Below, piece by piece: positions 2,652 through 21,804 of a DNA stretch of 26,409 nucleotides (positions are counted from its first letter, which is position 1; each line of letters begins with the position of its first letter). The translations under genes and the position numbers were made by a program. The notes under the pieces are model-generated. The model saw only the letters and a list, made by a program, of their open reading frames with translations, had not been told where the DNA came from and did not search any database. The DNA comes from a virus. Where the stretch lies: positions 12,620-39,028 of IMG/VR virus record IMGVR_UViG_3300030107_004134. One strand, written 5' to 3'.

Positions 2652-3011
2652 ATGCAATATATAATATTTTTAATACTTTTAGCGGGATTACAAGCTTGTG
2701 ATTACGGAAGCACAGCTAAAGATTCTAAACCAATAGTAGAAAAAGCAGTTACTACTGTTGTAGAACCTAAAGAGGAAATAACTTTAAAGGAAAATGAGTT
2801 AGTAAACTATACTTGTACTCCTATATGTGCAGACTTTATAGTCGCAGACCACGATAAAGACGAAATAGAGTTTTTACTAAAGAGGTCTGTGTTTTTTACT
2901 GAGGACATGATAGCTTGGTTTCAAGAAAACCAATGGGATTCTAGCGAACTAGAAAGCAAACTTGATTACCTTCAGATAAAATTAGCTAAGTTCATGGTTA
3001 GAGTAGACTAA
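2652..3011 (+). CDS. Predicted phage lipoprotein (119 aa)
   Basis: I start this gene at ATG 2652 because GGAGGA lies eight bases upstream at 2638-2643, and because that start gives a clean lipoprotein signal. MQYIIFLILLAGLQAC has a hydrophobic core and the lipobox LQAC, so C16 would be acylated and become the mature N terminus. A low-complexity linker follows (residues about 17-50), then a domain with a second cysteine pair (YTCTPICAD) and a helical acidic C terminus. The product should sit in the host cell envelope facing the periplasm. Lipoproteins made with replication genes can block superinfection by related phages (known for T5 Llp and others). That role is a guess here. Confidence 0.8.
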   Translation: MQYIIFLILLAGLQACDYGSTAKDSKPIVEKAVTTVVEPKEEITLKENELVNYTCTPICADFIVADHDKDEIEFLLKRSVFFTEDMIAWFQENQWDSSELESKLDYLQIKLAKFMVRVD

Positions 3012-3012
3012 T

Positions 3013-4896
3013 ATGAGTAAAAGCTTATACGAAGATTATATACATCAGAGTAGGTACGCAAGGTATCTACCAAACAAAAAGCGTAGAGAGACTTGGGAAG
3101 AAACAGTAGATAGGTACATATCTTTTTGGAAAGAAAAAATACCTACAGAGTATCATTCTGAGTTAGATCAGTGTAAGCAATTTATACTAGATAAAAAAGT
3201 AATGCCATCTATGCGTTGTCTTATGACTGCGGGAGAAGCGTTAGACAAAGATAATGTTGCGGGATATAATTGTTGCTTTGTTGCTATGGATAACGCTAGA
3301 AAGTTTAGCGAAATTATGTACATCTTAATGTGTGGAACAGGAGTGGGGTTCTCTGTATGCAAATCTGAAGTAGATAAACTTCCAACTGTTGCAGAGGACT
3401 TCCACCCTACCGACACTATGGTTTGTGTACCAGATAGTAAAATAGGTTGGTCTAAGTCTTTTAAAGAAATAATAACTTTATTATACTCTGGACAAATACC
3501 TAAATGGGACGTAAGCAAAGTAAGAAAAGCGGGCATGCCGTTGAAAACTTTTGGTGGTAGGGCTAGTGGTGCTGAACCTTTAGTAGAACTATTCAAATTT
3601 TGTGTAGAAATTTTTCAAAATGCAAAAGGTAGAAAACTTAAACCTATTGAAGTACACGATATAGTCTGTAAGATTGCAGATATTGTGGTAGTAGGTGGGG
3701 TTCGTAGGTCTGCTCTAATATCTCTATCTGATTTAGACGATAGAGAAATGCAAAAAGCTAAGAGTGGACAATGGTGGATAGATCACCCACACAGAGCATT
3801 AGCAAATAACTCTGTGTGTTATATGAATACACCCGCATTAAGCGTATTCTTAGACGAATGTGCTAGTTTGTATGAATCAAAGTCTGGAGAGCGTGGTATA
3901 TATTCTGTACCATCAGCTCAACGTGTAGCAGAAAGAAATGGGCGTAGAGATTCCGAGTATAAGTTTGGAACGAATCCGTGTTCTGAGATAATTCTTAGGG
4001 ATTCAGAATTTTGTAACTTATCAGAGGTTATAGTACGTTCAGGAGATAGTCAAGAAAAGCTAAAAGATAAAGTTAGAGTAGCCACCATTCTAGGTACTTT
4101 ACAATCTACCTTGACTAATTTTAGATTTCTTTCAAAAGACTACAAGAATAACTGTGATGAAGAGAGATTACTAGGTGTTAGTTTAACTGGCATACTAGAC
4201 CACGCTTCTCTAGGCGACCCAAACAATAAACAACTACCAAAAAAGTTACAAGAACTAAGAGAGGTGTCTATTGAAACTAACAAAGATTGGGCAAGTAAGC
4301 TTAAAATTCCTGAGAGCGTTGCTATCACTTGTGTTAAGCCTAGTGGTACTGTGTCTCAGTTGTGTAATACTGCCTCTGGTATTCACCCTCGTTATAGCTC
4401 TTACTATATACGAAATGTCAGAGGGGATAAGAAAGACCCATTAAGTAAATTTATGATAGATAAAGGCATACCTTGTAAAGATGCTCCAGAAAAACCTAAT
4501 GATATGTATGTGTTTAGTTTTCCTATACAGTCTCCAAATAGCTCTATTATGAGAGACGAATATGGAGCTATGAAACAACTAAAGTTGTGGAAAATATATG
4601 CTGAACATTGGTGTGAGCATAAACCAAGTGTTACTATCTACTATAAAGAAAAGGAATTTTTACCCGCTATGTCTTGGGTATACGATAACTTTGAGTCTAT
4701 GAGTGGAATTAGTTTTCTTCCACATACAGATCATGTGTATCAAGATGCTCCGTATGAGGAGATAGATGAGGAGAAGTTTAAAAAACTATCTAAAGAAATG
4801 CCTAAAGACATTGAGTGGACTGAACTTAATGAGGAGCTTGACTATACAACAAGTAGTCAAGAGTTGGCTTGTACTGCGGGAGCTTGTGACATTTAG
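3013..4896 (+). CDS. nrdJ: Class II (adenosylcobalamin-dependent) ribonucleoside-triphosphate reductase
   Basis: The 627-residue enzyme reduces ribonucleotides to deoxyribonucleotides using a thiyl radical made with vitamin B12. Family signatures are NCCFVAMDNARKFSE (from about 86), MCGTGVGFSV (106-115), VVGGVRRSALISLSDLDD (from about 226), FGTNPCSEIILRDSEFCNL (318-336) and VKPSGTVSQLCNTASGIHPR. C323 is the likely radical cysteine and C334 its partner, eleven residues away as in the Lactobacillus leichmannii enzyme. The C terminus ELACTAGACDI carries C620 and C625, the CX4C pair that shuttles reducing power. Size and signatures fit the monomeric RTPR type found in several marine podoviruses. 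It is the last gene of the + operon. It implies that the host makes or imports cobalamin. Confidence 0.95.
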   Translation: MSKSLYEDYIHQSRYARYLPNKKRRETWEETVDRYISFWKEKIPTEYHSELDQCKQFILDKKVMPSMRCLMTAGEALDKDNVAGYNCCFVAMDNARKFSEIMYILMCGTGVGFSVCKSEVDKLPTVAEDFHPTDTMVCVPDSKIGWSKSFKEIITLLYSGQIPKWDVSKVRKAGMPLKTFGGRASGAEPLVELFKFCVEIFQNAKGRKLKPIEVHDIVCKIADIVVVGGVRRSALISLSDLDDREMQKAKSGQWWIDHPHRALANNSVCYMNTPALSVFLDECASLYESKSGERGIYSVPSAQRVAERNGRRDSEYKFGTNPCSEIILRDSEFCNLSEVIVRSGDSQEKLKDKVRVATILGTLQSTLTNFRFLSKDYKNNCDEERLLGVSLTGILDHASLGDPNNKQLPKKLQELREVSIETNKDWASKLKIPESVAITCVKPSGTVSQLCNTASGIHPRYSSYYIRNVRGDKKDPLSKFMIDKGIPCKDAPEKPNDMYVFSFPIQSPNSSIMRDEYGAMKQLKLWKIYAEHWCEHKPSVTIYYKEKEFLPAMSWVYDNFESMSGISFLPHTDHVYQDAPYEEIDEEKFKKLSKEMPKDIEWTELNEELDYTTSSQELACTAGACDI

Positions 4897-4897
4897 T

Positions 4898-7800
4898 CTA
4901 AAGCTCCCCAAATACTTCATTAGCGTCTTCGCCAAACATATAATATAAAACTTTACCCGCTATAGGTATTTGTCTAACGCCTTTCCATATTTCTGCTGAA
5001 CCTGTAGCTGCTGCAAATACATCTCCACCAGTGCTTAATACTGGTGGAATTGCGAGGTCTGCAGCCGCACCCTCCCAATATCCACCCGCAATTTTATCTC
5101 TTAATATGCTATTCATGCCAAAAACTTTTAGTGTGTTTGCTACTACGACAGGAGCAAGACCTATGTTTTCTCCCTTATCGTTTTCAAACATTTCTTCAAG
5201 TTTGTTTCCGCCATTAATCCAATCTCTTACTGCCATTTTTAAAGACTCACTTCCAGTGTTAGCACTACCAACTATAGCACCATACCTAACAAGCTCTGCT
5301 GTTCCACCAACTACGTCTCCTTGAGCAATTTTTTTAAGTGATTTTTGTCTAACTAAGTCTAATTGTTTTAAAGCAAATGTTTTTAATTGATAAAGTATTC
5401 TTCCATTTGGGTGGTTAAGATATGCTTCTGGCATAGCAGATTGCACTACTGGTTGTGCGTCTATAAGATCATTAAAGACAACATATCTCATGTCATCTGT
5501 TATTTCTCCTTTAACTTTTTTTCCATCTACGTATCTACCTTTTCCATAGTTTCTAAAATCTTCTACAACCTTATTTAGTTGTGTTTCACTCATCGAGTCT
5601 CTATACTTATAACGCAATTCTTTTTCCATAGACAGTTTTCCACTGTCATATTGATACCACTTAGTAGGTTTTCCATCAGGGTCTTTAGAAATTTTAGACC
5701 ACTTTGCTAAAGATGAGTTTATATTTACGTTTTTACCAAAAATATCTACTGCTCTAAAACCAGACCATTTAAATACTTTTCCTAAATGGTTTTGTGTTTT
5801 ATTTACATCAGATAACTCAGCCATAAGGTCTAACCCAAAGTCCTGAAAGTCTAATTCTTTTCTTCCAGTAAGCGCTTTTACTGTTTGTATACTAGTGTTT
5901 ATTATTCCATGAAGAAACGCAGAAGTACCAACATCACCTATCTGAGTTATAGCTGAAAACGGGTTTCCTAAAGTCATCATGTAACCCGCAGTCTTAGCTC
6001 CAGATATTAATTCGTTAGCTCCTTTTTCTCCACCAATAAACCTAGCTTTTAAGAGACCTTCTACTTCTTTAATGTCTCCATTAGCTAGTCTACCAGCTTT
6101 TCTTTCTTCTCTTATTAAAGCACCTATTGAAGTTTCTATGCCGTCTACGTCATCTACACCTTTAGCAAACTTTCCGAAAAAGTTTCGTCTATGAACAGCA
6201 CGATTTACGTCTCTTAAATATCGCATTATTGCAATATCTGCTGTGTCGTAATGTTTCATTAACTTATTATTTAATTCTTCTATCTTTCTTTTTGACTCAG
6301 CACCAATTTTTTTAGTTATTGTTTCTATAGATGGCGCTCTTATAGACCTATTTAATACATCTGCTATTTCTGTTGGTGTTAGTTTTCTTCCTTTTTTAAT
6401 TAGATCGTTTAACAAAAGTTCGTGAAACTCATCTGTATCGTCTATGCCCAATTCTTTTACAAGTCCTTTTCTATCTTTTACTGATCGTGGGAAAAAATTT
6501 GTAAGCAACTCTACTTCTTCATTTGTTCTTGCTAGTTCTTTTCCTCTTTGTACTAGCAAAGGAGAAACTGCGCTAGAAAATTCATCACTCATTCCTTTAA
6601 TATTATTCATAATTTTAAAAGCACTTTTAAAATTTTTATTATTAAGATGTTTTGTTAAAAGTATTCTTGCCTCTTTAGGTAAACTTCTAAAATTTTCTAT
6701 CCATTTTTTAATACTTTGCATATCTTCATGTAATCTAATAGATGAGTCGTATTCGTGTTGTCTTACTCCACCACCAATTTTCATGTTTATATCATCAAGT
6801 CTACTAATTATAGGTTGCAAAGCTTTGTCTATTCCTAAAGAACCACGAAATAAACTTCTATTTAAATCTCTTACACTAGTAAGCGCTCTATCAGTAATTT
6901 TTCCTAATCTAGTTTTAGATAAAGATTTAGTATAACGACTTTTTAATCCCTTTTCAGTAAGCATTGGCATAACTTGTCCAGGTCTTTTAATTCCAAGAGT
7001 ATCTTGTAACAAACTATGATAAGTGCTTTTTTCTCTATAAGCTTTTAGTCCTGCTTCTTTAACAGACATATTTTCTCTAGCAACTAGCTCTGCTTGCCTA
7101 GTTTTTATTTTTGCTTCTACTTTTTTAGCTCGTTTATATCTTGCTTTTTTAGCAAAGCTTGTATTACCTAAAGCTTTTTTTCCTTTAGCAAAACCACTAA
7201 AAATTCCACCTACCCAACTAAGAGGGTCAGCTATAATATCAGCAGCCAAACCTGCAGCAACAGTTACACCTGCACTTGCTTTAGAGTTTTTTGCTAATGC
7301 AGTTAAAAGTGGTCCATAAGTTCCTTCAGGAGCAAGTCTGACTTTATCAAATTTTTCGTGAATTAATTCCATAAAAGAATCTTTTATTTTAGGGTCATCT
7401 GATTCCCAAGCTGCTTTTATGTTTTCTCTTGTTACTTCTATTCCGTTACCTTCTAAAAAAGATATTATACCCGCTCTTGTCGCTTCTCCAGGTCGAGCAA
7501 GGTCTTCTAAAATACCAAGATCATTTGCTTCTGTATCTATTACTTCATTTGTATCTATTACTTCATTATTACTAGATACTTTTGCGCTAGTTCTAGCTGC
7601 GTTTATTGTGTTTTCAGTTAAAGTATACGTTTTATTATCAATAATAACTTTATCACCAACATTAGAATTTGCAATATAATCTTGTGCTTCTTCTGAAGAA
7701 GTAAAATCTGCTGCACCAGCAGTGCCAGTTACAGCTAATAAACTTGCAGCTACTTTACCTTTTGCTTTAGAAGAATAAATAGGAAAAACATCGCTATCAA

Positions 7801-8857
7801 ACATAGGTAGCACAGCATCTCCATCTTCACTTTTTATTTGAGTTGGTCTTTCTTTAGGTGGAATATAATCATAACTATCTAAGTCATCCGCTGACCCCCA
7901 TCGTATAGACTTCTTCCCTTGAGAAGTAAATCGAACAGGAACTTTAGTAACGCCAAGTTCTTTTAAAGCCCTCATTCTATGTCTACCCTCATGCCCTACA
8001 ACTTGTGCCATACCTTTACCATCATGAGTAAAATCTATTGCAGGAAGATTTTCAAATTTAGTGCCACTTTCAATAAGCTCACTAACTTTCTTTGTTTTTC
8101 CTTTGTCTATACCTTTTTCTGCCAAAGCCAAAAATTCATCTGGAGACATATAAGTTATAGTTGACCTAGATTTATAAAACTTTGCTTCGTCTATATTACG
8201 TTCTAATGCTCCATCTGTAAAATACTTTTCACCCCTATGAGGAGGAGCTCTCCTTTTTGGTTTTTTAGTAGCTATTATATAATTACCGCGTCTTTCTACA
8301 TTACCTACCCCAAACACAGATTCAATTTCTGGAACATATTCTTCAGTTTTTAAATTGTTTTGCCATTGTTCTGGACCAGTTTGTTTACCTACACCAGATT
8401 TATTTCCCTCAAAAATTTGATAATAACTTTTAGAATTAGGCTTAGTAATATCATAAGCTTGTTCAATAAGTTGCTTTCTTGCTTCTGGTTCTTTTATTAC
8501 GTTAAGAGTATTTAGTGTAGTTGATGAATCTGCTCCTTTTTTTGAAGCCAGATTATTTAAAGCAGCGGCATTATGATCTTTTGTTCTATTATATGGGTCT
8601 ATTACTACATTAGTAATTCCTTTTTCTTTTTTAAGATAGTTTGTACCTATATCATATGCGCCACCACCTAAATCTGCATTAGTCTCTCCTTTTTTAGTAA
8701 CAAAAAGTTTACTTTTAAAAAAAGCAGCTACTTGGTTTCTTGATGTTCCTGCTGAAGGAAACTGTTGAGGATAAATTTTTTCTTTAACCCCAGAAACTAT
8801 ATCTTCGCCTATCTTTTGTATAGGCTTCATTGTTTTAGGTATTACTGAAAGTACCAT
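4898..8857 (-). CDS. Giant internal virion protein (T7 gp16 position) with methyltransferase-like and ParB-like N-terminal domains
   Basis: At 1319 residues and last in the late operon after two other internal-virion-type genes, this occupies the place of T7 gp16 (1318 residues), which is ejected into the cell with the DNA. The N terminus differs from gp16. ADLGGGAYDIG (61-71) looks like the SAM-binding glycine motif, followed by VVIDPYN and a TLNTLNVI strand, ending near 200. A second domain at about 230-315 contains VVGHEGRHRMRALKELGV (286-303), matching the G-H/E-G-R-H-R signature of ParB/Srx-fold domains. Hydrophobic, glycine-rich segments occur at about 367-385 and 528-558. The rest is long, basic and helical, as expected for an ejected channel protein. 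No transglycosylase motif is visible; a separate gene encodes one. An 18-bp tandem repeat lies in the linker at about residues 430-442. Domain calls are from pattern only. Confidence 0.82.
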   Translation of the reverse strand: MVLSVIPKTMKPIQKIGEDIVSGVKEKIYPQQFPSAGTSRNQVAAFFKSKLFVTKKGETNADLGGGAYDIGTNYLKKEKGITNVVIDPYNRTKDHNAAALNNLASKKGADSSTTLNTLNVIKEPEARKQLIEQAYDITKPNSKSYYQIFEGNKSGVGKQTGPEQWQNNLKTEEYVPEIESVFGVGNVERRGNYIIATKKPKRRAPPHRGEKYFTDGALERNIDEAKFYKSRSTITYMSPDEFLALAEKGIDKGKTKKVSELIESGTKFENLPAIDFTHDGKGMAQVVGHEGRHRMRALKELGVTKVPVRFTSQGKKSIRWGSADDLDSYDYIPPKERPTQIKSEDGDAVLPMFDSDVFPIYSSKAKGKVAASLLAVTGTAGAADFTSSEEAQDYIANSNVGDKVIIDNKTYTLTENTINAARTSAKVSSNNEVIDTNEVIDTEANDLGILEDLARPGEATRAGIISFLEGNGIEVTRENIKAAWESDDPKIKDSFMELIHEKFDKVRLAPEGTYGPLLTALAKNSKASAGVTVAAGLAADIIADPLSWVGGIFSGFAKGKKALGNTSFAKKARYKRAKKVEAKIKTRQAELVARENMSVKEAGLKAYREKSTYHSLLQDTLGIKRPGQVMPMLTEKGLKSRYTKSLSKTRLGKITDRALTSVRDLNRSLFRGSLGIDKALQPIISRLDDINMKIGGGVRQHEYDSSIRLHEDMQSIKKWIENFRSLPKEARILLTKHLNNKNFKSAFKIMNNIKGMSDEFSSAVSPLLVQRGKELARTNEEVELLTNFFPRSVKDRKGLVKELGIDDTDEFHELLLNDLIKKGRKLTPTEIADVLNRSIRAPSIETITKKIGAESKRKIEELNNKLMKHYDTADIAIMRYLRDVNRAVHRRNFFGKFAKGVDDVDGIETSIGALIREERKAGRLANGDIKEVEGLLKARFIGGEKGANELISGAKTAGYMMTLGNPFSAITQIGDVGTSAFLHGIINTSIQTVKALTGRKELDFQDFGLDLMAELSDVNKTQNHLGKVFKWSGFRAVDIFGKNVNINSSLAKWSKISKDPDGKPTKWYQYDSGKLSMEKELRYKYRDSMSETQLNKVVEDFRNYGKGRYVDGKKVKGEITDDMRYVVFNDLIDAQPVVQSAMPEAYLNHPNGRILYQLKTFALKQLDLVRQKSLKKIAQGDVVGGTAELVRYGAIVGSANTGSESLKMAVRDWINGGNKLEEMFENDKGENIGLAPVVVANTLKVFGMNSILRDKIAGGYWEGAAADLAIPPVLSTGGDVFAAATGSAEIWKGVRQIPIAGKVLYYMFGEDANEVFGEL
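7533..7568. repeat. Tandem 18-bp repeat inside the giant virion protein gene
   Basis: Two adjacent 18-base units, each starting gtatctattacttcatt, differ only at the last base. They encode a duplicated NEVIDT in the linker between the ParB-like region and the helical body. The repeat is in frame and adds six residues, consistent with slippage in a tolerant linker. Confidence 0.85.
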
Positions 8858-8866
8858 TATAAATCC

Positions 8867-10153
8867 TTATTGCAAGAATAATTGAGTTTTTGGAGGATCT
8901 AGTTTTTCATTTATTTTAAACAGCAAAGCTTCTTCAAGACTTTTCATTTTGTTTTTAACTTCTGGAGTATTCATATATTCTTTTAATGCTTTTTCAAATT
9001 TTAATTTACCAGCTGCTCCTTTAGAAGGAACACGTTGTCTTACTTCTGCTCGTATTTGTTTTTTATAATTTTCAATAGCTTTAAATTCTGGTATAGATTC
9101 TTTAAATTCTTTTATCATTTTATTTCTTTGGTTTTTTAATTGTGATCTTTCTGCTAGTCCTGCACCACCTAAACGTACATTTTCCATTTGTAAAGAAATA
9201 TCATTAGCACCAGATAATTCTAAAACAACATTATCTATTTCTTTTTCGTTATAACTATTAAGTTGTCGTTTTTTTACTGGAACGTCAGGTCGATACCTAT
9301 TTAAATCTTCTGGTTCATCTGAAGTTTGGTGTTCATTTATATTAAAAGTAGGTGTTTCGGCCGCAGCTTGTGTTTCAGTATCAGTTCCAACACGTTCAGG
9401 TAAACCAAGTTCTGCATTAGTAATTGGGTCTTCTTCAGAAACATATTTACTTCCATAGGTGGTCCATCTATCTTGACGACCTTTTTCTAATTGTTCTAAA
9501 GCAATAGTTTCCATAGCCTCAGAAACAGAAACACCAGTTCTTCTAGAACGCACAACAGCATCTTGAACAATACTCGATTTTTCGTTAGGACCTAAGTCTT
9601 TAAGATATTCTTTAACAGTATTGTTTTTAGAATCTCTTTTAATTGAATTATCAGCTAAAACTTCTAATTGTTCTAAGCCTAATTCTCTCTCGTCTTTACT
9701 AACTGCTTTTAGCATTCTACTTCTTTCTTTTGATAAATCTATATTTAATCGTGTTTGAGAAATTCTATTTGCTTCTTTTGTTGCCTCTGCCGCAACTCTT
9801 TTTGTAGCTAAATCTCTATACAATAAATTTGCTTGGTAAGCTTCGTTTGGAAACCCATACTCAGTTAATTTTAATGCCATGTTTTGAAAAAAACCTTCAG
9901 TTCCAAACTGATATTTATTTCCATCAGCGTCTGTAGAATCTAAAACAGCATTCATAGCTTCTTGTTTAGCTTCTGCTCGGTGTACTTCTGGTATGTCTCT
10001 TCCAAATAACCTTCCAAGAGAATATCCTAAACCTGTTCCTAAATTAGCTGATGCAGCAATAATTGCACTTTCTGGAGTAGAGCCTGGACTAACTCTTTTA
10101 CTTTCTAAAAAAGATCGTCTTATTGCTCCTGGATCTTCAAACAAAGCTGCCAT
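8867..10153 (-). CDS. Putative internal virion protein (T7 gp15 position)
   Basis: The 428-residue product lies between two other internal-virion candidates, matching the T7 order 14-15-16. It appears helical and highly charged. It begins MAALFEDPGAIRRSF, then has a glycine-rich segment (SANLGTGLGYSLGRLFG, about 34-50) and long helices rich in Lys, Glu and Ala to the C terminus. There is no signal peptide or enzymatic motif. I do not see direct sequence similarity to T7 gp15, so the call rests on order, size and composition. The gene ends nine bases before the next start, and its own ATG sits just downstream of the preceding stop. Confidence 0.6.
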   Translation of the reverse strand: MAALFEDPGAIRRSFLESKRVSPGSTPESAIIAASANLGTGLGYSLGRLFGRDIPEVHRAEAKQEAMNAVLDSTDADGNKYQFGTEGFFQNMALKLTEYGFPNEAYQANLLYRDLATKRVAAEATKEANRISQTRLNIDLSKERSRMLKAVSKDERELGLEQLEVLADNSIKRDSKNNTVKEYLKDLGPNEKSSIVQDAVVRSRRTGVSVSEAMETIALEQLEKGRQDRWTTYGSKYVSEEDPITNAELGLPERVGTDTETQAAAETPTFNINEHQTSDEPEDLNRYRPDVPVKKRQLNSYNEKEIDNVVLELSGANDISLQMENVRLGGAGLAERSQLKNQRNKMIKEFKESIPEFKAIENYKKQIRAEVRQRVPSKGAAGKLKFEKALKEYMNTPEVKNKMKSLEEALLFKINEKLDPPKTQLFLQ

Positions 10154-10167
10154 TATATCGTCTCCTA

Positions 10168-11040
10168 TTAATCAAATATATTTCTAAATGAACTAAAAAA
10201 ACTTGGGCTTCCACTACCTTGAGGTTGTTGTCCGTAGTCTTGTCCCATAAAATGACTACTTCTTCCCGAAAATGACGTTGAGTTAGGTGGTGATTTTGTT
10301 GCAGTACCTGCTGTCATTAACATATTCATAAAGTTCATGCTCGCTGCTCTATTTAATAATTCATTATTTGCTATCATTTGTGCTGATTGCATATTTCCTG
10401 GAGCTGTTGCTGCACCAGTTGCTAATGCTTGTTGAGCAACTTGTAATGGTTGATTTAAATAATTAACTATACTTTGCAATGAACCAATTTCTTCTGATTC
10501 TAATAATCTTCTTTCTGCTCTTGATCTATCTGTAGCCATTAATTGCCTTTCAAACATATCTCTAGCTATGTTTTGTTCATAGTTAGCAAAAGCTTGCTGC
10601 ATACCAGGTGTTGTAAATAATCCTCCAGTACGAGCAATAGCTTCTTCTTCTAACGCTCGCCTACCAAGAAGCTCTCCTGGCGCTGCCATTTTATTCATTA
10701 ACTCTATTTCTCTATCTATTTGCGCTTGGTCTCCACCTTGCGTATATTCTTGTAAAGCTAATTCTTTATCGCTAAATTGTCTTCGTAATACTTTTTCTAT
10801 GTCTCTACCTTCGTCTGTTAAATATGAAGTAGCTTTAATTGTTCCGTCTCTTTTTGCATCATATTGACCCGTAAACAAAGGACCTGATATTTGTACTCTT
10901 GGAGAAAAATATCCAACTCTACTTGTAGTTCCAGCAGGTACATCGCCTGTTATACCTAAAGCGTTTGTTATAGCACTAAAAAAAGTAGGCGTTAAAAAAC
11001 CTATTTGAAAGTTAATTAATTTTTGTATTACATTTATCAT
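10168..11040 (-). CDS. Putative internal virion protein (T7 gp14 position)
   Basis: The 290-residue product starts with a hydrophobic stretch (INFQIGFLTPTFFSAITNALG, about 9-29) that could insert in a membrane. A helical middle rich in Gln, Glu and Ala follows, then a Met/Ala-rich segment, and a low-complexity Ser/Gly/Gln tail (from about 245) ending SSFRNIFD. T7 gp14, the outer-membrane part of the ejectosome, is about 196 residues and occupies the same place. The assignment is by position, the hydrophobic N terminus and composition. It could equally be an unrelated tail-associated virion protein. Confidence 0.5.
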   Translation of the reverse strand: MINVIQKLINFQIGFLTPTFFSAITNALGITGDVPAGTTSRVGYFSPRVQISGPLFTGQYDAKRDGTIKATSYLTDEGRDIEKVLRRQFSDKELALQEYTQGGDQAQIDREIELMNKMAAPGELLGRRALEEEAIARTGGLFTTPGMQQAFANYEQNIARDMFERQLMATDRSRAERRLLESEEIGSLQSIVNYLNQPLQVAQQALATGAATAPGNMQSAQMIANNELLNRAASMNFMNMLMTAGTATKSPPNSTSFSGRSSHFMGQDYGQQPQGSGSPSFFSSFRNIFD

Positions 11041-11056
11041 TTAGGGTCTCCAAGTT

Positions 11057-11287
11057 TTATTCCCAATTTTCTTTTTCTTTTCCAAACATAGCTTCTACTT
11101 TCTTTTTATTAACTTTATAATTTAAATGTTTATAAACTAAACTAACAATTAAAGAACAAAAAGCTATACCAATAGCAAATAAAGTCGAATAATGATTTAC
11201 ATAAGCAGCAACACAAGCCCAACCACTACAACTATAAGTTATAAAATCTATTGCTTTAACAACAGATTCAGGGTGTTTATAAATCAT
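11057..11287 (-). CDS. Two-transmembrane-helix protein, holin candidate
   Basis: The 76-residue protein has a short polar N terminus, hydrophobic segments at about 13-30 (FITYSCSGWACVAAYV) and 34-52 (STLFAIGIAFCSLIVSLVY), and a basic, charged C-terminal tail (NKKKVEAMFGKEKENWE). This is class II holin topology and recalls small phage holins with an S-G-x-A/C-x-x-A first helix. Holins form lesions in the inner membrane that release the endolysin. It lies apart from the endolysin (about 22.5-22.9 kb), between membrane and virion genes. Other holin candidates exist in this window, so the role is uncertain. Confidence 0.6.
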   Translation of the reverse strand: MIYKHPESVVKAIDFITYSCSGWACVAAYVNHYSTLFAIGIAFCSLIVSLVYKHLNYKVNKKKVEAMFGKEKENWE

Positions 11288-11292
11288 TATTA

Positions 11293-11733
11293 TTATTCCT
11301 TATTATTATGGTAATCTTTTACAGTAAAATCGCTATCTTCGTCTGGATAATCTATTTTAGGATGGCGTACTCTTAAATATTCATATAAAAGCGTATATCC
11401 TTTTTTCTTTGTGTACCATAAAGAAATTGAATATCCAAGCATAATTAACCAAGGACAAAACACCGCTGCAAATATAACTAAATTCCATTGGCTTTCTTCT
11501 GTTAAATACATATACGGAGATAACGCAGATTGTAATAATATTTGTGTTAATGCTCCCATAGGAGCACCCATAACTACAGCATTAATTAGACTTTTTTTGT
11601 ACGTCCAAGGGGGTTTTCTTTCTTGCCTGTTTATGCGCTTTAAGTAAAGTTGGATATAAATACCTATTATTGTATTTATTAAGCAGGGTAGAAAAAGAAT
11701 TAATAAATATACGTACCATGAAACTGTCGTCAC
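11293..11733 (-). CDS. Three-transmembrane-helix membrane protein
   Basis: The product is 146 residues. Hydrophobic helices occur at about 5-29 (WYVYLLILFLPCLINTIIG), 50-70 (NAVVMGAPMGALTQILLQSAL) and 84-106 (NLVIFAAVFCPWLIMLGYSIS), with a charged, acidic C-terminal tail. It starts with GTG at 11733, overlapping the previous stop (GTGA), and is followed five bases later by the two-helix holin candidate. The pair could work together as holin and antiholin, or this could be an inner-membrane protein with another role. I recognise no family. Confidence 0.65.
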   Translation of the reverse strand: MTTVSWYVYLLILFLPCLINTIIGIYIQLYLKRINRQERKPPWTYKKSLINAVVMGAPMGALTQILLQSALSPYMYLTEESQWNLVIFAAVFCPWLIMLGYSISLWYTKKKGYTLLYEYLRVRHPKIDYPDEDSDFTVKDYHNNKE

Positions 11734-12017
11734 TTAGGGTTATCCTGTTTTACTTTTGTTATGTGATCTTTCCACGTAGTTGTTCCGTTTAATAAATCTT
11801 TATATTGCATATCTAATTGATCTTCAATATCAGCATATTCATTACGTCTTTTCTTTACAACTAATACTTTATTAGGATCAGTCCACTCTGAGCCATTCCA
11901 TACTTGTTTTCCTGACTGTGGAGCAACATTAACTTCTGTCAAGTTATCTGATAAATCTTGCGAATCGTCTGTCGCTTGATTTAATGTTCCGTCATCGTTT
12001 ACCCAAAATTTTGTCAT
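11730..12017 (-). CDS. Small protein after the fibre gene, possible tail-fibre chaperone or tail component
   Basis: I start at ATG 12017 because it overlaps the fibre-gene stop as ATGA and the downstream frame is continuous. An upstream ATG at 12044 would add nine residues inside the fibre gene. The 95-residue product begins MTKFWVNDDGTLNQ. A middle segment, KQVWNGSEWTDP, looks like a short beta module. The C terminus, RRNEYADIEDQLDMQYKDLLNGTTTWKDHI, carries the IEDQLDMxYxDL pattern seen in many phage tail-fibre assembly or fibre-adjacent proteins. The location right after the fibre supports that role. Confidence 0.6.
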   Translation of the reverse strand: MTKFWVNDDGTLNQATDDSQDLSDNLTEVNVAPQSGKQVWNGSEWTDPNKVLVVKKRRNEYADIEDQLDMQYKDLLNGTTTWKDHITKVKQDNPK

Positions 12018-12979
12018 AGCCACGCCCTCACTATCCATCTCCAATTACTGGGAGTTAAACCAGATTTATCAAACCCAGTTTTATTTATTGCCTGAATTTC
12101 CTCGCCTTGAATAATGGACACATTGGTTGCATCACAACAACTCGTGTAGCCTTGATCTGAGCCATTATGACTAATGTTATTGACCATTATTTCATCACCA
12201 GAAGAATAATTTGCGTCTCCTGTTTTACAAATTAAAGTTATTGTGTATTCCTTTGGTTTTGCACCTAACCCATGTGAAACATTTAAAGCAGTGTCTGTAG
12301 CTACTGTTTGTTCACCGCTTATAAAAGTTGGACTAATTCCAAAATCAGTACCCGCATCGTCTGTAAACATAAATCTATTTGGTGTTGCTGTATCTACCCA
12401 AATTTGACCTGCTCCTGCGGTATCGGCCTCCGCATTAGCTTGTTCTGTCATTTTAATAGTTCCTGCTGCCGTAATATCATTACCTTGACAATCAAGAGCG
12501 CCACCTAATTGAGGAGAAGTATCGTCAACAAGATCGCTACTTGCTGCTGTAACAGCCCTACCATTTGCTTTTGTGTAATTGACACACTGTGCATCGTTAG
12601 TTGCAGTACTAAAAAACTCTGCAACATCTCCTGCTGCGGTAGTTATATTAGCTTCACCAGGTAAATCTAAATCACTAGAATTATGTTGTAATACTAATGC
12701 TGCATCAAATTGAAAAAAGAAATGACGATTAGCAGCTACAACAAGACCGTTAATTTGTGTTGTTCCTGTTATATCAAAATAGTTACCATCAGTTCCTACA
12801 GTTAAAGAGTTAGCTGAAGCAATATCAGCTCCTTTTTCAACAGTTGCTTTTGTTGCTATTGATGTTACAATAGCGTCAAACTCAGCGTCTACTTCTGAAC
12901 CTTTTATAAGCTTAGAAGCATCTCCGCTACTTAAAGCGTCTTTTGCGCTAAAATCGTGTTGTCGTGAATAATCAGCCAT
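12014..12979 (-). CDS. Putative tail fibre protein
   Basis: The product is 321 residues. The N terminus (SRQHDFSAKDALSSG, then EVDAEFDAIVTSIATKA) resembles the virion-attachment segment of marine podovirus fibres. The middle is rich in Asn, Asp, Thr and Ala and contains SPQLGGALDCQGNDI, a motif common in phage fibres, and IWVDTATPNRFMFTDDAGT. The C-terminal part from about 225 is a beta-rich module (NVSHGLGAKPKEYTITL onward, with a CC pair at SCCDATN) that may bind the receptor. At 321 residues it is shorter than the T7 fibre (553). It starts at the stop of the tail nozzle gene and would be attached to the tail. Confidence 0.7.
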   Translation of the reverse strand: MADYSRQHDFSAKDALSSGDASKLIKGSEVDAEFDAIVTSIATKATVEKGADIASANSLTVGTDGNYFDITGTTQINGLVVAANRHFFFQFDAALVLQHNSSDLDLPGEANITTAAGDVAEFFSTATNDAQCVNYTKANGRAVTAASSDLVDDTSPQLGGALDCQGNDITAAGTIKMTEQANAEADTAGAGQIWVDTATPNRFMFTDDAGTDFGISPTFISGEQTVATDTALNVSHGLGAKPKEYTITLICKTGDANYSSGDEIMVNNISHNGSDQGYTSCCDATNVSIIQGEEIQAINKTGFDKSGLTPSNWRWIVRAWL

Positions 12980-14733
12980 TACCTTGCCACCCTTCCAATT
13001 TTAATTAATAATTCAACCTGAGATACAGCTATATTAGACCCATTAATAGTTACATCAAATCCATATTGTATATTTTGTCCAGAGCCAGAAAGTTGTGCTG
13101 GCACTTTATCTACTGTTATTGCGTCACCAGACCACTCTGCTAAGTTCCATTCTGAAGATCCCCATTGAGCGCCTCTTGCTATTGTGTCTCCTGATACTGC
13201 TGTAGCCTTTTGTCTATATTCTGTATTAACATAATCAAAAGCCCAAAAAAAGTTTATATCATAAGCAGAACCTTCGTCTACAGTCATTTTAATTTTTTTA
13301 GGTAATTTAACTAAACCCGCTACTTGTGGATCTAGAAACCCAAAGTCTAACCAATTAGACCTGTATTTAAAATTATATGAAGATTGTACTACAGAGCTTC
13401 CAGATAGCACACTATCTTTGTAGCCAGAATATTTACCTACATAACCAGACCTTGCAAGATATATTGTTCCATCATTAGCTGCAACTAAACTTTCTGGTTG
13501 CATTTCTAACCACCTAGAAACTTTAGGAAGTGGTACATCAATAGTTTTTGGGCTTGCTATCATGTCTTTAAAATCAAACATATAAACAGTAGACCCAACT
13601 AACAATAAATAAAATCCTTGTTCTTGTGAAAATAAAGATCTAATTTTATCTTTATCTTTAGAATTAATAAAATCTAAAAACTCTGTTCTTATGCTTTGAC
13701 TTAAATCTTGAGCTGGCATTTTTTCTAATTCAATAGTACGAGATAACGCCCTTAAACCATCACCAGATAAAAATATAATATCTGACCCTATGTTTTGTAT
13801 ACTATCTCTAGCAATACACCCCATACCTGATATTGTGTCTGCTAAAACTAATGAGCTAGGTGCTGAAGCGCTATTAAATATAGTAATATTATTTTTACCA
13901 AAGACTATTAATTGATTATTAAAAACTGCTATTGCTTTTATAAAATCTTGATCGAATGCAAAATTATTTAATAAGTCTATAGTTCCACCACCATTTTGGG
14001 TGTCCCATAATTTTTCATTATTAAAAGCACTATATCTAATAGTTGTTTTATCTGAATCTACTGCCCACAATCTACCAAAAGCAGATACAATACAATTTCC
14101 TTTTGGCATTTTAACTGTAGTCCAAGTAGCTCCGTTATCTACTACAGTAGTCCCCTCTGTGCTAGGAAAAGTAGGTTCAGAACCTCCTGACGTTCCTGCT
14201 GAAGTACAAACAAAATATCTTTCTTGAGTTGCAGAACTCACTGCTTTAACTGTAGCTCCTAAAGCATAAGCAGTTCCTGCTGCCCAATTAGAATGTTGAC
14301 TATGTATTGTTAAAAAATTACCTGAACCACCATCCCAAAATATAGGAAATTGAGATTGGCTAACACCAATAACTTTTCCATTTAAATTAGCAAATTGCCA
14401 ATTTGTATTACTAAAACTAAGAGACCCAGTTTTTTCTGTTATTGTAGTAGTGCCTGTATATAGTTTTCCGTTAGTATTATCTACTGTAATTATATGATCG
14501 TTACTTGCGTCTTCTGTATATTCAAAAGATTGATCTAAAGTTGGGTTACCAGTTATAGGAGTACCAGTTACTTTTAATAATCCTTTTCTAGCTGCCATTC
14601 TTCCTAAGTCATCAAATACAGCGTTATCTAAAAAAAACGCCCACTCTGGACCAAGACCTATTGAAGAGCTTTGTGTATTTAAACCTAATCTGCCAGGCGC
14701 TTTTATTTGTACTGGCAATAATTTTGTAGCCAT
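12979..14733 (-). CDS. Tail tubular protein B / tail nozzle (T7 gp12-like)
   Basis: The 584-residue product follows the adaptor gene, as gp12 follows gp11 in T7. Its start AFFLDNAVFDDLGRMAARKGL (about 29-49) resembles the N-terminal region of podovirus nozzle proteins, where an RKG-like segment is common. The remainder is beta-rich with propeller-like repeats such as GRLWAVDSDKTTIRYS (about 218-233), GDGLRAL and DGTIYLARSGYVGKY. The product would form the distal end of the short tail. It starts one base after the stop of the upstream gene and its own stop overlaps the fibre start. Confidence 0.8.
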   Translation of the reverse strand: MATKLLPVQIKAPGRLGLNTQSSSIGLGPEWAFFLDNAVFDDLGRMAARKGLLKVTGTPITGNPTLDQSFEYTEDASNDHIITVDNTNGKLYTGTTTITEKTGSLSFSNTNWQFANLNGKVIGVSQSQFPIFWDGGSGNFLTIHSQHSNWAAGTAYALGATVKAVSSATQERYFVCTSAGTSGGSEPTFPSTEGTTVVDNGATWTTVKMPKGNCIVSAFGRLWAVDSDKTTIRYSAFNNEKLWDTQNGGGTIDLLNNFAFDQDFIKAIAVFNNQLIVFGKNNITIFNSASAPSSLVLADTISGMGCIARDSIQNIGSDIIFLSGDGLRALSRTIELEKMPAQDLSQSIRTEFLDFINSKDKDKIRSLFSQEQGFYLLLVGSTVYMFDFKDMIASPKTIDVPLPKVSRWLEMQPESLVAANDGTIYLARSGYVGKYSGYKDSVLSGSSVVQSSYNFKYRSNWLDFGFLDPQVAGLVKLPKKIKMTVDEGSAYDINFFWAFDYVNTEYRQKATAVSGDTIARGAQWGSSEWNLAEWSGDAITVDKVPAQLSGSGQNIQYGFDVTINGSNIAVSQVELLIKIGRVAR

Positions 14734-15747: not shown

Positions 15748-16101
15748 CTACCAATCGGGTCTCGCTACTAATACTTTTATAACTCCGTTATTAAGAGCGT
15801 CTGCCGCAAACTCACCTTTATCTGCTTGTATATATAAACTTACGACATTAGCAGCAGTAACAGCAGCAGTAAGAACTGCTTGGTCTGTACCATCACTAAG
15901 ATCTACACTACAAGAAACACCAACAACCATATCTCCTAACTCAACGCCAGGAACAGCCATAGTTACAGTTAATGTATCATTAGCATCTATTGCATCTTGG
16001 TCAGCCCAAGTTGCCTTTACAGTCCACATATCACTAGCAAAAAAACCTTGAAATTGTCTACGACCCCTTTTTACTTCATTAAGGGTTAATGTATTTGCCA
16101 T
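15748..16101 (-). CDS. Putative small virion protein (capsid decoration candidate)
   Basis: The product is 117 residues. After a basic start (NEVKRGRRQFQGFF) it is beta-rich with alternating Val/Thr/Ala stretches (DTLTVTMAVPGVELGDMVVGVS, then QAVLTAAVTAANVVSLYI) and ends VLVARPDW. Such composition is typical of head-decoration or fibre-like virion proteins. It is downstream of the capsid gene and pqqA, with AGAGGAT before the ATG. No enzyme motif is present. A 157-residue protein at 23121-23594 has similar Thr/Val/Ala-rich character, but I cannot show that they are related. Confidence 0.5.
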   Translation of the reverse strand: MANTLTLNEVKRGRRQFQGFFASDMWTVKATWADQDAIDANDTLTVTMAVPGVELGDMVVGVSCSVDLSDGTDQAVLTAAVTAANVVSLYIQADKGEFAADALNNGVIKVLVARPDW

Positions 16102-16112
16102 GATTAAATCCT

Positions 16113-16187
16113 CTATTTATTGTTAATATACATCGTTACTTCAAATCCAAAACGGATATCTTCATAAGAAGGTGTTTCCCATTTCAT
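16113..16187 (-). CDS. pqqA: PqqA-like pyrroloquinoline quinone precursor peptide, 24 aa
   Basis: The 24-codon gene runs from ATG (complement of 16185-16187) to TAG (complement of 16113-16115). The peptide begins MKWETPSYED and ends RFGFEVTMYINNK. PqqA peptides are 22-29 residues, usually start M(K/Q)W-x-x-P, carry (R)xGxEVTxY, and end in Asn/Arg/Lys. Their Glu and Tyr, four residues apart, are crosslinked by the radical-SAM enzyme PqqE, with PqqD as chaperone, and become the whole carbon skeleton of PQQ. Here these are E16 and Y20, the same spacing and numbering as in Acinetobacter-type PqqA. AGGAG lies seven bases before the ATG. The gene sits after the capsid terminator and 11 bases before the next gene, on the late transcript. 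No pqqB-F gene is in the window, so processing would need host enzymes. Confidence 0.93.
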   Translation of the reverse strand: MKWETPSYEDIRFGFEVTMYINNK

Positions 16188-16194
16188 AGTATTT

Positions 16195-16199
16195 CTCCT
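16195..16199 (-). promoter_or_regulatory. Ribosome binding site of pqqA
   Basis: On the - strand AGGAG is followed by AAATACT and the ATG of pqqA. The perfect core and seven-base spacing argue that this very short frame is translated rather than a chance match. Confidence 0.8.
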
Positions 16200-16216
16200 A
16201 ACTAAGTATAAGTTTA

Positions 16217-16241
16217 TAAAAATGGGGGAGCGAACTCCCCC
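16217..16241 (-). terminator. Intrinsic terminator after the major capsid gene
   Basis: Read on the - strand, GGGGGAG-TTCG-CTCCCCC forms a perfect 7-bp, G/C-rich stem with a UUCG tetraloop, followed by ATTTTTA. It begins six bases after the capsid stop. T7 has its single late terminator at the same place, after gene 10. It is probably leaky, because no promoter is visible before the tail genes. That would lower transcription of pqqA and the tail genes relative to capsid. Confidence 0.85.
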
Positions 16242-16247: not shown

Positions 16248-17201
16248 TTACGCAGGTGATATAATACATACACCAGCATCGTTACGAAGCTCACCTACAC
16301 CGTAGATTGTATCTGCGGTAAATAAGTCAGATAAGTACTCTTGCATATATTGAGTTTGAGAGCGAACGCCCATTTGCTCAACGTAACCAAAAGCTGAACG
16401 ATGAAATAAGCAATTAGCTCTGTAAGCTGTGCTACCATCATCAGCATTAAAGTTTACTACATTAGTAGATACGTATACTGGAACACCATAAACATCACCA
16501 ATATGACCATTACGAATAGTATTCGCAGGGCCACCTTCACCAACAAACGCTTGTTCAGTAAAACGAGAAAGACCCATTAGGTTTTTCTTTTCTACTGGAG
16601 CGATAACAAGATAACGTTCTGATAAGGGAACGTCAGCGTCATCTAGCGTTTGAATTACTTTGCGAAGACCAGCGTCAGCAATAGCAGTACCGTTACCAGT
16701 ATTTGTATTTGCTGCGTCATTAAAAGCAGTTGTACCGTCAGAGCCAATGACCCCTGCGGTATAAGAGCTTCCATCTGCTGTAGCGCCTTGTAGTCCTTCA
16801 AACAACTCGTGTAAGTTAGTATCAACTTTTTTTGCTAGTGCAAAACCAGCATCGTCAGTATAAAACTTACGGTAACTATCAATTGCTTGAACACCAACAA
16901 TATCTTCAATTAAACGAGAGTATTCAAAATGTTTGTTAATTGAGATATCTGTTTTACCTTCTGTTGCTACGATAAGTGTTACTGCGTTATTTCCTGAAGA
17001 CTTTGCGCTTGCAGCGCCACGAGTTCCATTAGGAATATGAACAGTATCACCTTTTTTGCCATTGTGCATAATCTTTGTTACGAGATTTGCCAAGACAAGG
17101 TTTGCTTTAAATGAGCCAATGATCTCATCAGACCACATTTCAGGAATATAATTCGCTGCTGTAGTAGTCGTGATGGCATTGCCTGCTGCGAAAGCTGCCA
17201 T
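16248..17201 (-). CDS. Major capsid protein
   Basis: The 317-residue product starts MAAFAAGNAITTTTAANYIPEMWSDEI, a typical start of T7/HMO-2011-like capsid proteins. It contains GDTVHIPNGTRG (about 53-64) and INKHFEYSRLIEDIVGVQAIDSYRKFYTDDAGFALAKKVD (about 88-127), the N-arm to spine-helix pattern of HK97-fold capsids. Later segments, YLVIAPVEKKNLMGLSRF and GDVYGVPVYVSTNV, are also typical. It follows the scaffold gene and is followed by a strong hairpin terminator. AAGGAG precedes the ATG. Its codons include more G/C-ending and CGT/GGT-type choices than the neighbours, as expected for the most highly expressed gene. Confidence 0.93.
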   Translation of the reverse strand: MAAFAAGNAITTTTAANYIPEMWSDEIIGSFKANLVLANLVTKIMHNGKKGDTVHIPNGTRGAASAKSSGNNAVTLIVATEGKTDISINKHFEYSRLIEDIVGVQAIDSYRKFYTDDAGFALAKKVDTNLHELFEGLQGATADGSSYTAGVIGSDGTTAFNDAANTNTGNGTAIADAGLRKVIQTLDDADVPLSERYLVIAPVEKKNLMGLSRFTEQAFVGEGGPANTIRNGHIGDVYGVPVYVSTNVVNFNADDGSTAYRANCLFHRSAFGYVEQMGVRSQTQYMQEYLSDLFTADTIYGVGELRNDAGVCIISPA

Positions 17202-18553: not shown

Positions 18554-20527
18554 CTAGGTTATTGGGAGTTGTCCCGCCTGTGCAGCTAATTGTTCTTGTT
18601 GTTTTATTTGTGCTTCTTGTCTTTCTTTTTCTAATTTTTCTGTATCTATTTCTAGTTGTTTTATTCCTTGAAATCCTTGGATTATATTATCATCTTCGAT
18701 TTGTTCGGCTTTTGCAAGATTAAGTATACCAGCAGTCTTCTTATAAACCGCATCACTACCAGCCTTAAATGCATCTGTTTGTGCTTTGTCAGCTTCTATT
18801 TTAACAAGTTCCATAGCGACAGGATCAGTTTCTGGTTCTTGCGGTTGTAAGCTCTGTTGTAATTGCTGGTCAATAATAGGCATCATTTCTTCTCTATTAG
18901 AAATATTGCTTAATTGATACAATGATTTTATAAGCATCCAATAACTAGGAGAATTTGGTGGAGAAGTATTTAATAATTGTACTAATTGTTGTACTTCTAA
19001 TTCTCTAGCCATAATTCCTAAAGTAGAATTAATAACAAATCTTAAATTTACTAATGGATATTTTTCAGAATCTAATTGCATATACCGATACGCAGATTTT
19101 TTAACCCACTCGTCTAATAAATTAACTTCTATATTTTGTAATGTTCTTTTATTACGTTTAATTGAAGCCGAAGTAACCATACTCATACCACTAGCAGTTT
19201 GGTTTTGTGGTTGTGAATTAATAGAAGCAGCCGCTTGAAAAGCACCTGTACCCATTTCAACCATTCTTTCTAAATCTCCTGATTGATTAAAAGATAAAGA
19301 CGTTGGTGGTTGAAAATTTATTGGTTGTATAGCTTCTGCTGCTGGTCCATTAGTAAATATAGATCTACCTGGATAAACTTTAAAAGTAGTATTTAAATCA
19401 CGAGGTACTAATGCAGCATTAATAGCTACCATAGGATGAATAGCATAACTCATTGCGTCTATTCTTCCTCGTAATTCTGTATCTAAAGCTTTTTGAGGAG
19501 AATATCCTTTTTCTGCTATGCCCCTACCCCAAAATCTATTAGGTACTCTATCGTGTTGATATGCAATTATAGATCTATCTTGCATAAAAAACGGATTTTC
19601 TACTGCTCTAAGCAATACTCCATCATTTGCTATTGTTACTATAGCTTCTACAGTATCTGATTGTTTAGTCAACTCTTCACTTAAAATATTAAGTTCTTCT
19701 TCTACAGCAGCACCTATAGGTTCTAATAATTCTGACGGTACTCTACCATGATACTCAGTAATTTTTACCCAATCTTGTTTTTTTAATGGGCTTGCTTCTC
19801 CTCTAGCCCAATAATCACTATCATCTTTGCCACTACCAATATCTACATTAGCATAAACACCATCATCTTGTTTTCTTTTTACTGCGTCTTTATGCGAATA
19901 TAAAATATGAGCGCAACCTTCAGCGTCATTTATACTTTTAGCTAACGGGTCAATAGCAAATTCCATAGGGTCTATAGCTATTAAAGATACTTCTGGAACT
20001 ACAACCTTTTGAGAAGTTAAATTTCCAAGTTCATCCATCATAGGTGTTCTAGTAATTCTAGGCTTTACTACTACTTTACCAATACCAGTTCCGTATATAG
20101 CTCCATTTAAAAATATTTCAGATAAGGCATCAGGAACTTTAGCTAGTTCGTATTGTTTTAATAGTTCGTCTATAAAAACACCCATTATTTGTTGCTCTTC
20201 TGGATTATCTATAGAAGTTTTATCTATGTCTACCCAACGTTTAGAACTAAATACAGCTTCTTCTAATTCAGCTACAGTTACTTCTATAGCTTGTTGTAAA
20301 GCTGGAGCAATTAATCTACTTCTTTCGCTTTCTCTAGTTTTATCTTCAGATTTCCAAAGACCTCTCCATAAACGATAATACTCATTCCATTTTTCTCTAA
20401 AATTTGTATTTCTATAATCTTCCCAATCACGTACTTTATCTACTATCCACCCAACTAATGGGTCTTTAGTTTTGTTATTAGTGCTTGTCAGTGAATAATT
20501 ATCGTTTGTTACTATGCTGTTTACCAT
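18554..20527 (-). CDS. Portal protein (head-tail connector)
   Basis: The product is 657 residues, the largest structural gene near the terminase. The N-terminal helix (VDKVRDWEDYRNTNFREKWNEYYRLWRGLW) is typical of podovirus portals. It is followed by ESERSRLIAPALQQAIEVTVAELEEAVF and the core motif YGTGIGKVVVKP (about 151-162). The crown side is a Gln-rich helical C terminus (from about 585) with QIKQQEQLAAQAGQLP. It would form the dodecameric ring through which DNA enters and leaves. Its start overlaps the terminase stop, the usual terL-portal order. T7 gp8 is shorter (536 residues), so this resembles the larger HMO-2011-type portals. Confidence 0.88.
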   Translation of the reverse strand: MVNSIVTNDNYSLTSTNNKTKDPLVGWIVDKVRDWEDYRNTNFREKWNEYYRLWRGLWKSEDKTRESERSRLIAPALQQAIEVTVAELEEAVFSSKRWVDIDKTSIDNPEEQQIMGVFIDELLKQYELAKVPDALSEIFLNGAIYGTGIGKVVVKPRITRTPMMDELGNLTSQKVVVPEVSLIAIDPMEFAIDPLAKSINDAEGCAHILYSHKDAVKRKQDDGVYANVDIGSGKDDSDYWARGEASPLKKQDWVKITEYHGRVPSELLEPIGAAVEEELNILSEELTKQSDTVEAIVTIANDGVLLRAVENPFFMQDRSIIAYQHDRVPNRFWGRGIAEKGYSPQKALDTELRGRIDAMSYAIHPMVAINAALVPRDLNTTFKVYPGRSIFTNGPAAEAIQPINFQPPTSLSFNQSGDLERMVEMGTGAFQAAASINSQPQNQTASGMSMVTSASIKRNKRTLQNIEVNLLDEWVKKSAYRYMQLDSEKYPLVNLRFVINSTLGIMARELEVQQLVQLLNTSPPNSPSYWMLIKSLYQLSNISNREEMMPIIDQQLQQSLQPQEPETDPVAMELVKIEADKAQTDAFKAGSDAVYKKTAGILNLAKAEQIEDDNIIQGFQGIKQLEIDTEKLEKERQEAQIKQQEQLAAQAGQLPIT

Positions 20528-21804
20528 TAATATCCTGCCTGTTGGTCAATTGGATTCCAAGTATCAACCCAAGGTTGATCTATATATGAAGTTATAGCTA
20601 TTTGATCTATATAAGCAAGTGCATCTAACATATCATCGTGTGTTAATTGAGAAGGAAAATCTAATGCTTGCTCTATTAATTTTTTTAAATACTCTCCTGA
20701 ATTAAAAGAAACTCTACCATGTTCTAATCTTCCTTGCAAAGCCCACGTAATTCTTTCTTGTTTCTTTTTTCCGCCGTGACTTAATTCAACTACATTTGGA
20801 AAAGTGTTTAATCTTCTCATTTGATCTGTTAAATAAGGCATAATTGCGTTTTTTAAACTTCCTTTTTCAATACCTACGCAAAGAGGTTTGTATTTTTGTG
20901 CAGCTCTTAATATTTGTATGCTAGTTTCTCTAACATCCCATCTACCAGTTATAATATCTTTTATGTGCCAGCCCTCTGGTCCAGCTTTTACTATTGCTAT
21001 TGCACATTCATCTAATCTTGCTAACTTACTTGTAATTTTTCTACCGTGTAAATCTATAAAACCAGCGGGATCGACTGCAATATAATAATTTCCTTGTGGT
21101 TCGTCTTCTGTTATATTATTAAACCACTCTTCTTTAAATACATTTCCACCACCGCTTCTAAAAGAAGCTTGATATTCCTGTAAAAACACTTCAGAAGATA
21201 AAGTATTTCTAGCGTTTTCTACTTCATCTGCTGGAACAAAAGGGTTATCTGCGGTATTAAACTCAAATGCTTCCCAATCTTCTAGTTTAGTAGCATCTAT
21301 AAATAAATTATAAAAATGATTTTTACCTGCTGGAGTTCCTATAAATAAAGCTCCACCTTTTACATCAGAAAGTGTAGGTCTTATAATTTCTTCCCACACT
21401 GAAGGTTTCATTGTAGCGTATTCATCTAAAACTACGTAACTTAAACCAACTCCTCGAAGAGTATCTGGCCTGTCTGAACCTTTTATGTGTATCTCTCTAC
21501 CGTTTATTAACTTTACTACTCCAGTATTTTCTAAAGTATCTTTTATGACACCTTCACCTAATCCTTTTATAAGCTTCCACATAATATCTTTTCCTTGTTG
21601 AAAAGTTGGAGCTACGTAATAGGTTACTATCTCTGGTCCTAGCTTATATCCAAACTCATTTTCTTCTTTAAGAGCTTCTATTAGTAAAGTTACAGCAGAA
21701 AGATAAGATTTTCCAAATCTTCTACCTGCTGCGCATACTTTAAATCTTTTTTCAGAATTAAAAATATCTAATTGGCCTGGATGTAAATTAAAATTTAATT
21801 CCAT
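20527..21804 (-). CDS. terL: Terminase large subunit
   Basis: The 425-residue packaging ATPase and nuclease shows all expected motifs. Walker A is CAAGRRFGKSYLSA with K32. Walker B is YVVLDEYATM with D127 and catalytic E128. Motif III is ALFIGTPAGKNHFYNLF (about 152-168). The RNase H-fold nuclease has YYIAVDPAGFID (D245), CVGIEKGS (E313) and THDDMLDALAYI (D390, D391, D394). Length is within the usual range. The gene lies between the secreted small protein and the portal, joined to both by stop/start overlaps. It would cut concatemers and drive DNA into procapsids. Confidence 0.96.
   Translation of the reverse strand: MELNFNLHPGQLDIFNSEKRFKVCAAGRRFGKSYLSAVTLLIEALKEENEFGYKLGPEIVTYYVAPTFQQGKDIMWKLIKGLGEGVIKDTLENTGVVKLINGREIHIKGSDRPDTLRGVGLSYVVLDEYATMKPSVWEEIIRPTLSDVKGGALFIGTPAGKNHFYNLFIDATKLEDWEAFEFNTADNPFVPADEVENARNTLSSEVFLQEYQASFRSGGGNVFKEEWFNNITEDEPQGNYYIAVDPAGFIDLHGRKITSKLARLDECAIAIVKAGPEGWHIKDIITGRWDVRETSIQILRAAQKYKPLCVGIEKGSLKNAIMPYLTDQMRRLNTFPNVVELSHGGKKKQERITWALQGRLEHGRVSFNSGEYLKKLIEQALDFPSQLTHDDMLDALAYIDQIAITSYIDQPWVDTWNPIDQQAGY

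Follow-up and report, generated by a model that had tools for sequence, protein, structure and literature searches.

Can a phage draw on a gene whose product is itself the raw material of a cofactor? PqqA is a peptide that is consumed in the synthesis of pyrroloquinoline quinone (PQQ), one PqqA for each PQQ, while the enzymes of the pathway can be used again, and PQQ is a cofactor needed, for example, for bacterial methanol oxidation. In an earlier note on the DNA studied here a very short frame had been read as a phage-encoded pqqA. In this study we analyze that stretch, called the window below (26,409 nucleotides, bases 12620-39028 of a 39,028-base viral record), and ask whether the frame is a true pqqA, how widely phages carry the gene and what it might do during infection.

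The 24-codon frame and its surroundings

The pqqA frame, 24 codons and a TAG stop, lies at 16113-16187, exactly where the earlier note had put it. It is read from the minus strand, with the ATG at 16187 and the stop ending at 16113; on the plus strand of 16113-16187 translation gave no PqqA-like peptide. The perfect AGGAG that had been described before the frame, its ribosome binding site, is found at 16195-16199 (minus strand), 7 nt 5' of the ATG. When the peptide, MKWETPSYEDIRFGFEVTMYINNK, was run against the curated models as the earlier note had proposed, it matched both NCBIfam TIGR02107, an equivalog model for PqqA (E=1.1e-12, 47.5 bits; cut-off 20), and Pfam PF08042 (E=8.3e-12, 45.2 bits; cut-off 21.1), in each case over the whole model length and at more than twice the cut-off score. 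E16 and Y20 form an E-x-x-x-Y with the spacing of characterized PqqA in the numbering of PMC10906245, as had been supposed. The window peptide shares its length and W3, P6, R12, G14, E16, T18 and Y20 with bacterial PqqA (TIGR02107/PF08042) of the gammaproteobacterial KW type, and in the clade of the window (n=6 sequences) the whole gene has a pN/pS of about 0.06. Judged by the curated models the frame is a genuine PqqA and a chance frame is excluded, the assignment being based on translation, model matches and purifying selection.

The gene stands among structural genes that are all encoded on the minus strand, in the order capsid gene, hairpin, pqqA, 117-aa gene. The major capsid protein gene directly upstream (16248-17201; phrog_267 major head protein, E=1.3e-46) ends 60 bp before the pqqA start, and between the two a sequence scan found a terminator-like hairpin, GGGGGAGTTCGCTCCCCC, followed by ATTTTT (16224-16241, minus strand). 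Directly downstream, the ATG of an open reading frame for 117 amino acids without a PHROGs match (15748-16101) lies 11 nt past the pqqA stop; this gene follows the capsid gene also in relatives that have no pqqA. Thus pqqA has viral flanks, with the 117-aa gene to one side and capsid, portal (18554-20527; PF23899 SU10_portal, E=1.1e-18) and terminase large subunit (20527-21804; PF03237 Terminase_6N, E=2.2e-12) to the other. Because the window encodes a transglycosylase and an M15 peptidase besides terminase, portal and capsid, the record is that of a tailed phage, and the claim that pqqA is phage-encoded and adjoins the capsid gene holds. Placed after the capsid gene, behind the hairpin and near the start of the next gene, pqqA would be expressed late by read-through. 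In our scan no sigma-70 promoter match was found ahead of the window pqqA. At 32 of the 58 viral loci whose upstream neighbour points away there were sigma-70 matches at 9 or more of 12 positions, compared with about 27% of mononucleotide shuffles, which is weak evidence for promoters since any intergenic DNA may show such an excess. The last of the structural genes (4898-8857, minus strand) encodes a 1319-aa protein without a PHROGs match, probably an internal virion protein.

Probable gain or loss, spread and selection of viral pqqA

Comparing filled and empty sites of relatives, whose capsids are 70-96% identical to that of the window over the matched part, we could outline a net 90-bp pqqA cassette at approximately 16121-16213 (minus strand). 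Its right end lies inside ATAAATAG, which is common to the empty sites, so that both ends could be off by a few bases. As had been suggested, we looked for the same short frame after the capsid gene in related phages, and it was found in L002, L009, L012, L013 and L383, and also in L160 and L109, where the capsids are 55% and 20% identical; at 11 further loci pqqA stands behind another capsid type, phrog_371. In the filled sites (the window and four measured relatives) the next ATG is 125-126 bp past the hairpin end, in the empty ones (L003-L008, L010, L011 and L014) 35-36 bp, the difference in site length being 90 bp. The presence of pqqA cuts across two alternative downstream genes: one follows filled sites in the window, L002 and L009 and empty sites in L003-L008 and L014, the other filled sites in L012 and L013 and empty sites in L010 and L011. 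Hence the cassette was probably gained or lost more than once, perhaps through recombination. Since phages closely related to that of the window do without pqqA, its benefit seems to be conditional.

Viral copies beyond these relatives were sought with degenerate DNA patterns, which are biased against divergent PqqAs, and the prevalence obtained from these scans is a lower bound. Several residues in the N-terminal half (W3, P6, R12, G14 and others) are prescribed by the patterns, and conservation there is therefore partly by construction; two unbiased patterns end at G14 and leave codons 15-24 free. Scanning IMG/VR for the core R-x-G-x-E-V-T-x-Y returned at least 120 stretches, nearly all of which are short frames for PqqA preceded by a ribosome-binding-site-like sequence. 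The K-W type pattern gave 60 matches, 57 of which are PqqA, and the M-W type pattern together with five phage genomes from tblastn gave at least 124 complete frames. A ribosome-binding-site-like sequence precedes 196 of 198 copies, a number that includes phage genomes and the window, covers 92 distinct peptides and may contain redundant contigs. The earlier note had proposed that E16 and Y20 should be fixed and dN/dS low in relatives. Besides the low pN/pS of the window clade, we found that E16, T18 and Y20, which the patterns leave free, are invariant in 181/181 viral copies among the matches listed. Among these matches, pN is zero at codons 15, 16, 18 and 20 with pS at 0.2-1.5, and the unconstrained tails of other viral pqqA genes in two pattern sets have pN/pS values of 0.24 and 0.15. 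By these measures viral pqqA is under purifying selection, which preserves the residues that PqqE acts on in many phages.

Phage pqqA stands alone. Whereas pqqB-E adjoin the gene at 90 of 120 bacterial loci obtained with a similar pattern, the phage gene of the window is a solitary member of a structural operon, and none of pqqB, C, D and E was seen beside pqqA in the DNA around each of the 192 viral loci with PqqA among the matches listed. Nor does pqqB occur anywhere in the 50 longest viral records with pqqA (0/50). With these two counts host contamination could be ruled out as the source of viral pqqA. The families found near the viral gene include capsid, terminase, endolysin, RecE/YqaJ and Sak recombination proteins, clamp loader, RegA and PAAR. 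Counted as pairs of neighbour families, the surroundings of the gene take 125 different forms, which suggests that pqqA has entered many phage backgrounds. One clear case of host contamination was noted separately: the record named Acinetobacter phage MD-2021a (L209, CAKLQF020000010.1) looks bacterial in the part examined because that part contains a pqqABCDE operon and other host genes.

Cultured methylophages, C1 oxidation and hosts

Searching with the window peptide by tblastn, we found pqqA in P19250A (LD28 host), Venkman, MEP301, MEP401, MEP402 and four Melnitz strains. All isolates examined of phages that infect the methylotrophs OM43, which are marine, and LD28 carry the gene, including every OM43 isolate named in a 2023 study (PMC10580990). 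TIGR02107 accepts, at 34-41 bits, the peptides of P19250A, Venkman, MEP301, MEP402 and Melnitz as well as that of a complete environmental record. It had been supposed that a gene this short is easily missed by annotation, and indeed pqqA is unannotated or a ‘hypothetical protein’ in the records of P19250A (L203), Venkman (L204), MEP301 (L205), MEP402 (L206) and Melnitz (L207); the papers on Melnitz and MEP401/402 make no mention of phage pqqA. In Venkman pqqA lies alone, on the opposite strand to both of its neighbours.

Some pqqA phages carry further genes of C1 oxidation. Among the 20 longest viral records with pqqA, two also contain pmoC (L368, 372 kb; L352, 171 kb), assigned to the AmoC family with E of about 1e-122 by a model that covers amoC too. 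A PQQ-dependent alcohol/methanol dehydrogenase accompanies pqqA in one of the 50 longest records (L125, 72 kb; record bases 34049-35731). In the window itself there is no recognised PQQ-using phage enzyme.

The cellular PqqAs nearest to the window peptide are gammaproteobacterial, with 21-22 of 24 residues identical. Of the ten genomes that encode these peptides, all have PqqE and nine a PQQ alcohol dehydrogenase that scores over the cut-off. As most of these genomes are, judging from their titles, gammaproteobacteria, the host of the window phage may be a PQQ-making gammaproteobacterium, a suggestion drawn from one short peptide only. TMED127 was considered as a host and set aside, since it is alphaproteobacterial whereas the nearest cellular PqqAs are gammaproteobacterial. 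The ribonucleotide reductase of the window phage had no match in ten candidate genomes, which is uninformative on the host, and the window contains no tRNA genes and hence no host hint from tRNAs. Two of the bacterial genomes, G001 (the genome of L284) and G003 (that of L210), have two pqqA copies each over the cut-off, on different contigs.

Proposed role, alternatives and relation to known systems

How might PqqA without PQQ enzymes serve a phage? Bound at its leader by PqqD, PqqA is presented to PqqE, which cross-links Glu16 and Tyr20 (PMC10906245). When purified PqqA was added to Gluconobacter extract, 70-80% of it was turned into PQQ, and in one methylotroph pqqA is present five times, three times as a solo gene (PMC9851590). 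In Acetobacter, overexpression of pqqAB raised PQQ by only 29% and that of the whole cluster eightfold (PMC7936290), so that in uninfected cells a larger supply of PqqA by itself may do little for PQQ levels. If a phage silences host transcription, the pathway would be starved of PqqA early; we propose that phage-made PqqA might then be bound by host PqqD and cross-linked by host PqqE at E16-Y20, and host PqqB and PqqC would finish PQQ from it. In this way the phage would renew the only pathway component that is consumed stoichiometrically after host transcription falls, and PQQ-dependent alcohol or methanol dehydrogenases would be kept supplied until lysis. We judge it quite probable that a substrate-competent phage PqqA replenishes the consumed component of host PQQ synthesis in infection. 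We also lean, with somewhat less assurance, to a wider reading: solo pqqA would be common in phages of PQQ-dependent C1 oxidizers (OM43, LD28, methanotrophs and other PQQ-making gammaproteobacteria), acquired again and again and so far overlooked, and would supply the consumed substrate. On this wider reading phages would carry the gene for the substrate and not one for an enzyme because PqqA runs out once the host makes no more.

The earlier note had left two roles side by side, feeding of host PqqB-E or a decoy. As a decoy, phage PqqA would occupy host PqqD and PqqE and thereby slow PQQ synthesis or divert flux from periplasmic oxidation, and an excess of phage-made substrate would presumably compete for PqqD. 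However, E16 and Y20 would be needless for this purpose, and yet neither varies in the 181 viral copies among the matches listed; the joint occurrence of pqqA with pmoC or a PQQ alcohol dehydrogenase in one phage likewise points to support of C1 oxidation and not to its inhibition. Of the two roles feeding is thus favoured, because the residues cross-linked by PqqE never change, and we consider a decoy unlikely. Our data fix the chemistry, that is substrate competence, but leave the use of the product free, and PQQ might serve redox protection or a PQQ-linked signal in infection instead of dehydrogenase supply. The partners that we did see on pqqA phages, however, are pmoC or a PQQ alcohol dehydrogenase, and such other use appears rather improbable.

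A small mobile cassette that arises from host/phage recombination and has little effect on infection would explain the clean presence and absence among close relatives as well as the many combinations of neighbours around pqqA. Purifying selection on the gene needs a benefit, however, as does its presence in all OM43/LD28 isolates examined, and we give a mere passenger little chance. Finally, host DNA binned as viral, of which the MD-2021a record is a real example, or a chance frame could imitate a phage gene. For the window such an artefact is refuted by the terminase, portal and capsid genes around pqqA and by model E-values of 1e-12; at large, the lack of pqqB-E at all 192 viral loci among the matches listed and the presence of pqqA in isolate genomes make it barely credible.

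Viral pqqA is of a kind already known, since one Lake Baikal population was reported with it in 2020. In that work (Coutinho et al. 2020, PMC7678222) the population with pqqA, VP_266, is T4-like and was reported to carry methanol dehydrogenase too; its pqqA was put forward as an auxiliary metabolic gene in a phage of methylotrophs. Our L125 record, which combines pqqA with a PQQ-dependent alcohol/methanol dehydrogenase, resembles VP_266, whereas the window phage belongs to a different lineage with a solo pqqA after the capsid gene. The Baikal paper described P19250A as being without its reported genes, but by tblastn that phage does carry an unannotated pqqA. Viral pqqA is also listed in a 2026 reservoir study (PMC13188868), and PHROGs has no family matching phage PqqA. 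Hence viral pqqA as such is less new than the earlier note suggested. In the literature searched, which covered few subscription journals and preprints, there was no account of the extent, solo state and fixed catalytic residues, nor of pqqA in cultured OM43/LD28 phages and its pairing with pmoC. The solo pqqA genes of methylotroph chromosomes (PMC9851590) likewise stand outside a full operon and are understood as precursor supply, but they are chromosomal and not viral; linkage to pqqBCDE, though usual in bacteria, is thus no requirement for a PqqA. A further C1-oxidation gene, pmoC, is known from large freshwater phages (Chen et al. 2020, PMC7674155). Both are C1-oxidation genes of phages, pmoC encoding an enzyme subunit and pqqA a consumed substrate; the text of that paper does not mention PQQ.

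Most auxiliary metabolic genes encode enzymes. The product of phage pqqA is the starting material of a cofactor, and each cofactor molecule made costs one peptide. If the proposed role were true, phages of lakes and oceans would help to keep infected cells oxidizing methanol and methane, which would bear on the C1 carbon cycle, and the cultured phage-host pairs (Venkman, Melnitz, MEP301, MEP401/402 and P19250A) make the idea testable now. In L082 (record bases 1-14000) the DNA polymerase frame is seemingly split into two parts (9538-10779 and 11378-12241, named from reading the translations) with about 600 bp without a long frame between them, similar to MEP401/402, where an intron is suspected. 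In the early region of the same record (3762-6654) we noted a gene pair whose products, from translation only, look like a VWA-domain protein and a MoxR-type ATPase.
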